The translations under genes and the position numbers were made by a program. Below, piece by piece: positions 32,657-36,192 of a stretch of DNA of 58,950 nucleotides. This DNA comes from Halobellus captivus (GTDB lineage: Archaea; Halobacteriota; Halobacteria; Halobacteriales; Haloferacaceae), in assembly GCF_007655485.1 (NCBI RefSeq), contig NZ_VJXQ01000001.1, positions 669,571 to 728,520 on the forward strand. Direction: 5' to 3'. The notes beneath the pieces are model-generated. The model searched no databases. It was not told the DNA's origin and saw only the letters and a program-made list of their open reading frames with translations. The stretch's first letter is position 1. Every line of letters starts with the position of its first letter.

Positions 32657-33829
32657 ATGCCGACCAACGACGCGTTTCTGGGACTCGTCTGTACCGAGAC
32701 CGGAGAACGCTACGACGCGACCGCGACGGGACATAGCGACGCGGGCGCGCGACTCGAAGCGGCCTACGAGTACGACGCCGTCGACTGGGCCGACGGGACG
32801 CCCGCGGACGAATCCGACTCGATGTGGCGCTACGCCGACCTGCTCGCGTTCGAAGAACCGGTCACGGCCGCGGAGGGCGGAACACCGCTCGTCTCGGCAC
32901 CGACGCTCGCGGCGGAGGCCGATATCGGTGCGCTCTCGATCAAAGACGAGGGGCGGAATCCGACTGGGACGGTGCTGGACCGCGGCCTCGCCCCGGCCGT
33001 GACCGCCGCGCGCGAGGCCGACGCGGACCTCGTCGCGCTCGCGACGCCCGGGAACGCGGGACAGTCGGCCGCGTCCTACGCCGGACTCGCCGAGTTGCGC
33101 TCGTACGCGTTCGTCCCCTCGCGGGCCCCCTTCCCGAACAAGGCGATGATCAACGTCCACGGCGGCGAGATGCGCGTCGTCGGCGGGCGCTACCCAGACG
33201 CCGAGTCCGCCCTTTCCGAGCAGTTGCAGTCGGCGTGGTACACGCTCCAGGAGTTCGACAACCCGCACCGACACGACGGGATCAAGACCGCCGCCTTCGA
33301 GATCGCGGAGTCGCTCTCGTGGGCGACTCCGGACGGCGTCGTCGTCCCCGCGGGCACCGGCGAGGTCGTCGCCGGAATCGCGAAGGGATTTCGCGAACTG
33401 CGGGAGCTCGGACTGACCGCAGACGTACCGCCGATCTACGCCGCGCAGCCTTCGGGCTGTGCGCCCATCGTCGCGGCCCATCAGCGAGATTCCGACGCGA
33501 TCGAGTCCTGGGAGTCGCCGGACACGATCGTCGGCGAACTGGAGATCACCGACCCGAAGGGCGGGGACGCCGCGCTCGAAGCGGTCCGATCGACAGGCGG
33601 CGGGGTCGTCGCCGTCGACGACGAGGACAGTCTGGAGAGCGCCGTGCTCGCCGCACAGCGGGTGGGCGTCGAAGCGGGACCGGCTGGCGGCGTCGCGCTC
33701 GCGGGTGCCGCGGCGCTCGCCGACGAGGGCGCGTTCGGAAGCGATGACGACGTCGTCGTCCTCAACACGGCGTCCGGGACTAAAAGCGCCGACGTGCTCC
33801 GGAGTCACTTGATGGGGAAGGGGATATAA
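32657..33829 (+). CDS. Threonine synthase-like protein lacking the PLP lysine
   Basis: A 390-residue fold-type II protein closest to threonine synthase, which turns O-phosphohomoserine into threonine. Much of the cofactor pocket is visible (SIKDEGRNPTGT, 94-105; ATPGNAGQSAASYAGLA; PAGTGEVVAGIAKGF). But the catalytic lysine of the canonical NPTGSFKDRG is Leu107 (NPTGTVLDRG), and the N-terminal zinc-ribbon-like CxxC has lost its second Cys (LVCTETGERYD). It therefore cannot form the usual internal aldimine. It may be a pseudoenzyme or use another residue. The gene is intact, with no frameshift. A true ThrC presumably lies elsewhere in the genome. Confidence 0.8.
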   Translation: MPTNDAFLGLVCTETGERYDATATGHSDAGARLEAAYEYDAVDWADGTPADESDSMWRYADLLAFEEPVTAAEGGTPLVSAPTLAAEADIGALSIKDEGRNPTGTVLDRGLAPAVTAAREADADLVALATPGNAGQSAASYAGLAELRSYAFVPSRAPFPNKAMINVHGGEMRVVGGRYPDAESALSEQLQSAWYTLQEFDNPHRHDGIKTAAFEIAESLSWATPDGVVVPAGTGEVVAGIAKGFRELRELGLTADVPPIYAAQPSGCAPIVAAHQRDSDAIESWESPDTIVGELEITDPKGGDAALEAVRSTGGGVVAVDDEDSLESAVLAAQRVGVEAGPAGGVALAGAAALADEGAFGSDDDVVVLNTASGTKSADVLRSHLMGKGI

Positions 33830-33945: not shown

Positions 33946-34668
33946 ATGTTGAGCGACGTGATGGAGGACTACCTCAAGGCGATCTACCAGATACAGGCGC
34001 GCTCTGGACCGCCGGTATCCACCTCCGCGATCGCGACGGCGCTCGATAAGACGCCCGCGACGGTGACGAGTATGCTCGGTACGCTCGAAGAGCGCGGGCT
34101 GATCACGCGAGAGAAGTACAAGGGGGCCGAACTCACTCGCGAGGGCGAGACCGTCGCGCTAGAAGTGCTTAGACACCACCGACTGCTGGAAGCGTACCTC
34201 GCCGAACAGCTCGATTACTCCTGGAGCGAGGTCCACGAGGAGGCCGACGCGCTGGAACACCACATCAGCGAGGAGTTCGAGCGGCGCGTCGCGGCCGCCC
34301 TCGACGACCCCGTCGTCGACCCGCACGGCGACCCGATCCCGTCGGCGGATCTCACGCCGCTGGAAGAGGACGAGGCGACGCCGCTGTCGACTCGGGAGGT
34401 CGGCGACCGCGTCGTCGTCTCCCGCGTCAGCGACCGCGACCGCGAGGAACTCGAATACCTGGCCGACGCGGGAATCACGCCCGGAACGGCGCTGGAAATC
34501 GTCGATGTCGCTCCCTTTGGAATGATCACGGTTCGAACGGACGAGGGGGTCGAACAGAGCCTCCCCGAATCGATTGCCGAGGCAATCTACGTCGCCGCCG
34601 ACGCCGACGCGACCGACTCCGAGCAGCGAGGCGACACCGATCAACGGGGAGGCGTCGGCAACGCGTGA
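33946..34668 (+). CDS. DtxR/MntR-family metal-dependent regulator
   Basis: A 240-residue repressor: winged helix (1-65; EDYLKAIYQIQARSGPPVST), dimerisation and metal domain (66-125; LEVLRHHRLLEAYLAEQLDY, EADALEHHISEEF), and a C-terminal FeoA/SH3-like domain (about 150-220). The residue matching DtxR Met10 is Asp8, as in manganese-responsive MntR, and E-H-H matches MntR ligands, suggesting Mn(II) as ligand (inference). Haloarchaeal SirR proteins of this family respond to manganese. The stop codon overlaps the start of the GDT1-type gene, so the two are co-translated. Confidence 0.9.
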   Translation: MLSDVMEDYLKAIYQIQARSGPPVSTSAIATALDKTPATVTSMLGTLEERGLITREKYKGAELTREGETVALEVLRHHRLLEAYLAEQLDYSWSEVHEEADALEHHISEEFERRVAAALDDPVVDPHGDPIPSADLTPLEEDEATPLSTREVGDRVVVSRVSDRDREELEYLADAGITPGTALEIVDVAPFGMITVRTDEGVEQSLPESIAEAIYVAADADATDSEQRGDTDQRGGVGNA

Positions 34669-35366
34669 GCGCGTACCTCGAAATCGTCGTCATCGCGTTC
34701 GTTGCCCAGTTGGCGGTGCTCCCCGGCGAGAAAGTCCAGTTCATCATCGCCGGACTGTCAACCCGTTACGACCCGAAGGTGGTCGTCGCCGCCGCGGGCT
34801 CGGCGTTCGCTGGCTGGACCGCCCTCGAGATCCTCTTCGGACGGGCGTTGCAGTCGGCGCTCTCCCCGCAGGTCCTCGACGCGGTGACGGCGGCGCTCTT
34901 TCTGACGTTCGCCGTCCTGCTGTACCGTTCTGCCCCCTCGTCCGGCGACCGCTCGGCGTCGCCGACGACCGACGGCGGGACCGCCGATCTCGACGGCTTG
35001 CGGCTGCCGGAGCCGCTCGACCGCTACTCGGGGTCGTTCGGCGGCTTCCTCCCGATCTTCGCGCTGATGGTGACCGGCGAGTTCGGCGATAAGACCCAGT
35101 TGATCACCATCGGGCTGGCCGTCCAGTACGGCGCGACCTCCGCCATCTGGGTCGGCGAGATGCTGGCGATCATCCCGATCAGCCTCGCGAACGCGTACTT
35201 CTTCCACACGTTCGCACACCGGGTCGATATGCGGAAAGCACACCTCGCCGCGGCCGCGCTGTTCGCCCTCTTCGGCCTCGACGTCGTGCTCTCGTTACTG
35301 ACGGGCTTCTCGGTCTGGGACTCACTCATCGGCGTCGTCAGCGCGGCCGCCGCGGGACTCGTCTGA
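34665..35366 (+). CDS. GDT1/TMEM165 (UPF0016) family cation transporter
   Basis: A 233-residue membrane protein with six to seven helices. The family has two copies of the E-x-G-D-K-T motif, used to move Mn2+ or Ca2+ against H+. The second copy is perfect (EFGDKTQLITIG, from Glu139), the first is changed to LPGEKVQFII (19-28), lacking the leading Glu and Thr. The central linker (about 92-115) is Ser/Asp-rich. The GTG start overlaps the regulator's TGA (GTGA). Bacterial members export manganese, fitting the MntR-like partner. No separate promoter is seen. Confidence 0.88.
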   Translation: MSAYLEIVVIAFVAQLAVLPGEKVQFIIAGLSTRYDPKVVVAAAGSAFAGWTALEILFGRALQSALSPQVLDAVTAALFLTFAVLLYRSAPSSGDRSASPTTDGGTADLDGLRLPEPLDRYSGSFGGFLPIFALMVTGEFGDKTQLITIGLAVQYGATSAIWVGEMLAIIPISLANAYFFHTFAHRVDMRKAHLAAAALFALFGLDVVLSLLTGFSVWDSLIGVVSAAAAGLV

Positions 35367-35378
35367 TCACCAGTGGAA

Positions 35379-35458
35379 CGTCCTCGTAGATCGTTTCGCG
35401 TCCCCGCAGATCGTTTCGCGTCCCCGCAGGTCGTTTCGCGTCCTCGCAATCCGTCTTT
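35379..35458. repeat. Four tandem 20-bp units downstream of the GDT1 gene
   Basis: Units start at 35379, 35399, 35419 and 35439, each close to cgtccccgcagatcgtttcg; the last copy is diverged. They fill the 130-base gap before the LysE-like gene and end just before its TATA-like cctttttctc (35467-35476). Function unknown. Confidence 0.85.
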
Positions 35459-35499
35459 CTTCGGATCCTTTTTCTCGGTATGCTCCCGTTGTTAGTGTG

Positions 35500-36192
35500 A
35501 TGACGAGTCTCGTTGTGACGCTTACGGCCGGTCTCATCTTCGGCGTCGCACTCGCGGCACCGCCGGGGCCGATGAACGCGATCATCGCCGAGGAGAGCGT
35601 TCTCAGCGGCTGGATCGCGGGGTTCAAAGCAGGACTGGGTGCGATGACCGCAGACGCGATCTTCTTCGTCCTCGCGCTCCTTGGCGTCGTCGCGTTCGTC
35701 GAGCAGTTCCCGATCGTCCGCGCGGTGATGATCGGCGTCGGCGGCGGGTTGATGCTGTACTTCGCCTACGGCGCGCTCGTCGAGATGCGATCGTCGTTCC
35801 GGGCGGACAGCGGAGTCGAACCGCGGGAGTCGCGCGCGGGAACGGGTTTTCGGAAGGCGTTCGTGCTGGCGCTCACCAACCCCTACCAGATCCTCTTCTG
35901 GCTCACGATCGGCGTCGGGATGCTCCAACCGGGACGCGTCGACGTCCTCGCGCAGACGCCGTACCTCGGCGAGTCGATTGCTGGACTCGTCGTCGTCGAC
36001 ACCGGCTCGCCAGCGCTCATCGCGGGCTTCTTCGGGGGTATTGTGGTGTGGATCACGGGCTTCCCGGCCGCCCTCGTCGGTGCCGAGCGCCGCGTCGACG
36101 CCTTCGCGCCGATCGTCGCGGGCGTCAGCGCCGTCGTGCTCGCCGCCTTCGGCATCCTCTTCGTGACGCAGAGCGCCGGAATCCTGCTGTAG
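35500..36192 (+). CDS. LysE-family amino acid exporter
   Basis: A 230-residue membrane protein of the LysE/RhtB family with six helices. Family features are the N-terminal LTAGLIFGVALAAPPGPMNA, AGLGAMTADAIFFVLALLG, and the helix 4-5 region ALTNPYQILFWLTIGVGML. The family exports basic amino acids, homoserine or related solutes. The substrate is not predictable; a link to the adjacent threonine-synthase-like or metal genes is not supported. The ATG is chosen over an adjacent in-frame GTG three bases earlier. The TATA-like box lies at about -27. Confidence 0.88.
   Translation: MTSLVVTLTAGLIFGVALAAPPGPMNAIIAEESVLSGWIAGFKAGLGAMTADAIFFVLALLGVVAFVEQFPIVRAVMIGVGGGLMLYFAYGALVEMRSSFRADSGVEPRESRAGTGFRKAFVLALTNPYQILFWLTIGVGMLQPGRVDVLAQTPYLGESIAGLVVVDTGSPALIAGFFGGIVVWITGFPAALVGAERRVDAFAPIVAGVSAVVLAAFGILFVTQSAGILL

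Follow-up and report, generated by a model that had tools for sequence, protein, structure and literature searches.

What keeps a threonine synthase (ThrC)-like gene in the genome once its product has lost the lysine that forms the Schiff base with PLP, and was that lysine lost in one strain or as part of a wider pattern? The question is raised by an open reading frame at positions 32657–33829 (+) of a 58,950-nucleotide stretch of the Halobellus captivus genome, hereafter the window. The frame runs open from an ATG start to a TAA stop and encodes a lysine-less threonine synthase-like protein of 390 amino acids (P0001), placed in PLP fold type II by Pfam PALP, AlphaFold2 and Foldseek. Residues 98–112 are EGRNPTGTVLDRGLA; the canonical motif NPTGSFKDRG reads NPTGTVLDRG, and residue 107, a leucine encoded by CTG at 32975–32977 (+), aligns exactly with the PLP lysine of ThrC structures. 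A preliminary description of this DNA had noted the leucine codon, the intact frame and a missing second cysteine in the N-terminal CxxC, and these observations are borne out. In the zinc ribbon remnant (32690–32701, +), Cys12 is followed by Thr13-Glu14-Thr15, Thr15 replacing the second cysteine, and the downstream CPxCGG pair is absent as well. The ribbon is eroding within the Haloferacaceae: among 39 non-redundant lysine-less sequences, Cys12 is nearly invariant (37/39) and Cys15 is present in 22 and lost in 17.

Threonine synthases (TIGR00260, NCBIfam PRK08197; structures 2zsj, 1v7c, 6nmx and 2c2b) are the nearest relatives of the window protein by both structure and sequence. Its Pfam PALP match scores 215 bits, and an AlphaFold2 model built with 64 orthologs (pLDDT 94.5, pTM 0.93) finds threonine synthases as its best PDB matches in Foldseek, with target TM scores of about 0.8–0.86 against bacterial ThrC structures; a lysine-bearing relative also models well (89.8). 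Shared with ThrC are the PLP fold type II, the domain order, the NPTG..DRG motif, the Asn loop GN and the arginine of NPYR. Unlike ThrC, the window protein has Leu107 in place of the Schiff-base lysine, and where ThrC has the PLP phosphate loop (GNAGN, or GGGVGL in the haloarchaeal family) it has PAGTGEVVAG with Glu236. In the loop NSxNPYR, whose residues we take to contact substrate in ThrC, Arg205 is retained and the NS pair has become EF. Both curated ThrC cut-offs are missed (PRK08197, 270.1 against 303; TIGR00260, 136 against 167.1). The same genome encodes four further fold-type-II proteins, and the canonical thrC that the preliminary description had proposed to look for is among its genes: the protein at G000:C15:30740-31738 carries NPTGSFKDRGMT and GNAGN and exceeds the TIGR00260 cut-off (290.4 against 167.1). 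Threonine synthesis therefore need not depend on the window gene.

The loss of Lys107 is part of a concerted change. We scored ten other PLP-site positions (F106, A131, A134, K209, Y230, T232, G234, V236, G237 and T371) that are uniform in the lysine-bearing form. Among 67 lysine-bearing proteins, 64 retain all ten, one retains nine and two only four or five, and the 107 lysine-less proteins keep one to five, apart from the Halobacterium salinarum protein with Arg107, which keeps seven; most positions were picked for separating the groups, so this gap is a description and not a test. The window protein retains two of the ten, A134 and T371. The pseudoenzyme with a retained fold and an otherwise intact pocket that had been proposed for this gene thus stands as to the fold, in the AlphaFold2 model and its Foldseek matches, and falls as to the pocket, where the PLP site has been rewritten. 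Residue 209, a lysine in nearly all lysine-bearing orthologs, is isoleucine here (33281–33283, +), and K209 and K107 are lost together in all three large lysine-less families; no substitute or migrated lysine has been gained in any of the three. The former phosphate loop at 33347–33376 (+), PTGGGVGLVG in lysine-bearing orthologs, includes Glu236 (33362–33364), and position 236 is acidic in 59 of 59 lysine-less Haloferacaceae proteins and in 0 of 54 primary lysine-bearing ones. Glu199 (33251–33253, +), a threonine in lysine-bearing orthologs, aligns with an Asn of the canonical NSxNPYR loop; the position is acidic in 88% of the lysine-less Haloferacaceae proteins and in 0% of the primary lysine-bearing ones. 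Position 372 is acidic in 97% of this lysine-less set and Thr234 occurs in 93%. Over the whole protein, exactly four positions that are non-acidic in primary lysine-bearing orthologs have become acidic in at least 80% of Haloferacaceae (199, 236, 294 and 372), and the switch is limited to this family. The window protein has the acidic Glu199 and Glu236, but Ala372. In the ThrC alignment these sites fall in the substrate loop (199), in the phosphate loop (236) and beside a Thr near the pyridine ring (372), roles that we presume for the matching ThrC residues. From these substitutions, proteins of the window type very probably no longer perform lysine-dependent PLP chemistry. The vacated cofactor pocket of the Haloferacaceae, that of Halobellus among them, has become acidic and is probably no longer a PLP-binding site.

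The gene belongs to a family that is nearly universal among haloarchaea. Matches at E ≤ 1e-60 occur in 384 of the 391 Halobacteria genomes sampled; against the family profile, orthologs reach about 380 bits or more, save for a few divergent ones, and canonical ThrC about 230–300 bits. In a search across the phylum, haloarchaeal orthologs scored 389 bits and up, bar one partial, divergent sequence at 336, and among the matches listed those from outside the Halobacteria reached at most 339 bits and ended near profile position 382–385. These low scores and early match ends suggest that the family is confined to Halobacteria, as it appears to be. The C-terminal helix of the window protein (33776–33826, +), ending in RSHLMGKGI, is common to primary lysine-bearing and lysine-less orthologs, and among the matches listed the RSHLMG segment has no counterpart in other archaeal ThrC. 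A plasmid-borne origin was considered and rejected, as plasmid matches are too distant (all below 60% identity, the best listed at 31–40%). Among named loci, Natronococcus, most Natrialba, Halopiger, Halorarius, Haloarchaeobius and others, a slowly evolving set, carry Lys at position 107. The residue is Leu in Halobellus, Halogeometricum and most Haloferax; Tyr in Halohasta; Thr in Halococcus and many Natrinema; and Ala, Arg, Asp, Val, Phe, His, Ile, Gln or Gly elsewhere. The lysine-bearing orthologs (Natronococcus, Halopiger and Halobacterium sp. TGN-42-S1, for example) are recognizable as the same gene from their sequence and C-terminus and, in several families, from their gene order; unlike the window protein they have a complete PLP site, and the Natronococcus member passes PRK08197 (373 against 303).

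Gene order ties the two forms together. In the window, Pfam assigns Amino_oxidase to the neighbor on one side and Fe_dep_repress/Fe_dep_repr_C/FeoA to that on the other; in Haloferacaceae, as in several other families, the gene is flanked by a divergent FAD amine oxidoreductase, a DtxR-family regulator and a GDT1 cation antiporter. Neighbors, most often a divergent FAD oxidoreductase upstream and GDT1 downstream, are shared by lysine-less genes of Haloferacaceae and Halococcus and by lysine-bearing genes of Haloarchaeobius, Halobacterium bonnevillei, Halorarius and Halalkalicoccus; Natronorubrum texcoconense (Thr107) and N. halalkaliphilum (Lys107) have another neighborhood, common to both. 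The presence of both forms at shared loci argues for orthology rather than ancient paralogy. No operon partner is conserved across families, and the search for a partner by operon logic was dropped because the Natrialbaceae neighbors differ. At 33946–36192 of the window, a DtxR-family regulator with a FeoA domain, a GDT1 cation/proton antiporter and a LysE translocator stand in a row, a possible metal-homeostasis cluster beside the gene. In Haloferax volcanii, HVO_0817 is a flavin-containing amine oxidoreductase (PMC4300041) and HVO_0819 is SirR of the DtxR family (PMC11349517); since the gene sits between these two types in the window and in Haloferax loci, we infer that the Haloferax ortholog is HVO_0818. 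A search of the accessible literature found no paper on HVO_0818 or on lysine-less ThrC-like proteins. An insertion in H. volcanii thrC3 (HVO_2969) causes an auxotrophy that is relieved by glycine, serine and threonine together (PMC4300041), so other ThrC-like genes, including HVO_0818 if it is the ortholog, did not compensate.

The number and direction of the changes at residue 107 were read from trees. A first tree of 174 rows gave seven changes between lysine and other residues, but its deep nodes are weak and its long lysine-less branches lie close to the outgroup, a placement suspected to reflect long-branch attraction and gone from the pruned tree. For the second tree the PLP-site columns and the longest rows were left out, and lysine-bearing paralogs served as the root; it gave six changes, with the lysine-bearing form as an ancestral grade. 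We read these as five losses and one regained lysine. The losses fall in Halobacterium salinarum; in Halococcus; in a clade of Natrinema, Natronorubrum texcoconense and Natrarchaeobius; in L055 with L122, at a fork that is not fully resolved; and in a large clade that includes the Haloferacaceae (support 90/97). The order, from lysine to other residues, follows from the root and from the complete PLP site common to the paralogs. The sequences and these trees show at least five lineages in which the orthologous gene gave up its lysine, starting from an ancestral form with a complete PLP site. An rpoA1 species tree of 86 of the genomes requires at least 16 changes, so the losses may be more numerous, or some alleles may have been exchanged between species. 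In H. salinarum DSM 3754 (L037), Arg107 is encoded by AGG, and an 85%-identical protein (L031) keeps Lys (AAG) and the complete PLP site; the H. salinarum loss is apparently the most recent, caught in the act. Natrinema salsiterrestre (L042; codons 106–107 AGC AAG) has Lys107 amid a Thr/Ala clade and four of the ten PLP-site residues, the lysine likely having been regained by chance. In L042 and L200 the lysine looks as if it had arisen again in an already altered site.

Several other explanations could account for a leucine at this position, one being an error of sequencing or assembly. The preliminary description had held that a read-level error, or lysine in close relatives, would make this a local mutation, and had proposed to see whether Leu107 is conserved in an orthologous group. 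Leucine is found in all Halobellus and Halogeometricum orthologs and nearly all those of Haloferax, and across the family it is written with five different codons (CTC, CTG, TTG, CTT and TTA), which points to selection keeping it in place. Shared by relatives, by all Halobellus species and most of the Haloferacaceae, and variously encoded, Leu107 has a practically negligible chance of being an error. Close relatives lack the lysine, which disposes of a local mutation; more distant orthologs at the same locus have it, and its absence is thus a recurrent evolutionary loss. The same distribution could be produced by hidden paralogy, in which a single ancient duplication, one loss of the lysine and differential retention of the copies would mimic repeated loss. 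Some Haloferacaceae and other genomes do hold two copies, one with lysine and one without, and the deep nodes of the 174-row tree are poorly resolved. However, lysine-less proteins are nested with strong support within lysine-bearing clades (H. salinarum, Halococcus and the Natrinema/Natronorubrum texcoconense clade), both forms occupy the same neighborhood, as in the two Natronorubrum species, and the second lysine-bearing copies form a clade of their own with a distinct residue signature. We consider hidden paralogy improbable.

If the lysine was lost repeatedly, the lysine-less genes might simply be decaying under relaxed selection, as pseudogenes in the making. Their sequences do vary more (a mean site entropy of 1.41 bits, against 0.77 for lysine-bearing ones, both in a broader sample), and one Halobellus rufus assembly is frameshifted. 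Against this, pairwise dN/dS by the Nei-Gojobori method (our own script, with pairs that are not independent of one another and a moderately high dS) has medians of 0.114 in lysine-less Haloferax (53 pairs), 0.168 in lysine-less Halobellus (10 pairs) and 0.167 in Natrinema (36 pairs, one member lysine-bearing), compared with 0.112 in the mostly lysine-bearing Natrialba and 0.078 in lysine-bearing Natronococcus; the lysine-less genera, at 0.11–0.17, lie within the lysine-bearing range of 0.08–0.19. Frames are open in nearly every genome sampled, and both forms share about fifty positions with a conservation of 95% or more. The lysine-less genes are under purifying selection, and decay is very improbable. 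Two split orthologs were seen: that of Halobellus rufus (L024, around 4429), an error or a recent break, and that at G303:C25:34770-35788, two overlapping pieces on one contig that are probably frameshifted. A maintained protein might also be an active enzyme that uses PLP with no Schiff-base lysine to hold it, or that dispenses with PLP altogether, its acidic pocket serving as a new active site. The pocket changes are not random but specific, and are conserved within families (in Haloferacaceae, acidic at 236 in 100%, at 372 in 97% and at 199 in 88%, with Thr234 in 93%), and conserved polar residues are left (K96, Q136, R156, K162, H168, R205, Q264 and C268). But different lineages have different residues at 107 (L, Y, A, T, R, V and others), so the catalytic part of the lysine has not passed to any one residue; the acidic switch occurs in Haloferacaceae alone, and no lysine has been gained elsewhere in the protein. 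We consider new chemistry doubtful.

The window protein has two marks of a pseudoenzyme, a missing key catalytic residue (Leu107, with loss of the PLP site) and upkeep by selection, and we favor the reading, with a probability of roughly 0.6, that it is a pseudoenzyme which has arisen repeatedly within a pan-haloarchaeal ThrC-like family and is kept for a non-PLP role that predates the losses. Phe106, Lys209 and the GGGVGL phosphate loop went along with Lys107 in a gene that stayed intact under purifying selection, and a second function, already present in the lysine-bearing primary copies, would keep the protein. Seven residues scattered along the sequence (N166, R178, P288, D289, G293, E296 and M386) may mark it: they are invariant or nearly so in primary lysine-bearing proteins and in the three large lysine-less families, and are altered in most secondary lysine-bearing copies, which accompany a lysine-less copy in some ten genomes of the Haloferacaceae, with one more in another family. 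This is the pattern expected if the primary gene had a non-PLP role before the lysine was lost. The secondary copies branch first among the orthologs in the second tree, however, so the seven residues may instead have changed on the secondary branch, where the pattern could reflect a change of substrate. These copies (L128, L132–L137, L140, L173, L179 and L194), which have Ala296 and mostly Gly386, were possibly acquired horizontally. The most likely mechanism would be that of a homodimeric or heteromeric scaffold, a sensor or a regulatory subunit acting through the retained fold. More tentatively, the ancestor may have been bifunctional, a PLP enzyme with a PLP-independent role that alone kept the gene in nearly all Halobacteria as the cofactor site was given up five times or more, and in the Haloferacaceae the pocket may have been refashioned into an acidic site that takes another ligand.

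Pseudoenzymes are usually known as one-off paralogs that stand beside an active copy, whereas here a near-universal orthologous gene has shed its cofactor lysine repeatedly, and both forms can be found at the same neighborhood. TSB-like offers a partial parallel: a paralog of a PLP enzyme, it no longer catalyzes a reaction of its own but has been retained to activate a partner enzyme allosterically. TSB-like arose by two key-residue changes and its partner is known, whereas in haloarchaea it is an orthologous gene that has lost the PLP lysine, together with most of its PLP site, several times over and in parallel. The moonlighting threonine synthase of Microcystis aeruginosa is reported to have an activity beyond threonine synthesis and is annotated as a PLP-dependent enzyme, unlike the lysine-less window protein (PMC12172450). 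Our results imply that many of the haloarchaeal matches to threonine synthase models are proteins unable to work as threonine synthases. Living orthologs with and without the lysine provide natural replicate experiments on the passage from enzyme to non-enzyme, and the conservation of the gene points to a core function in haloarchaea, one that is approachable in Haloferax volcanii.
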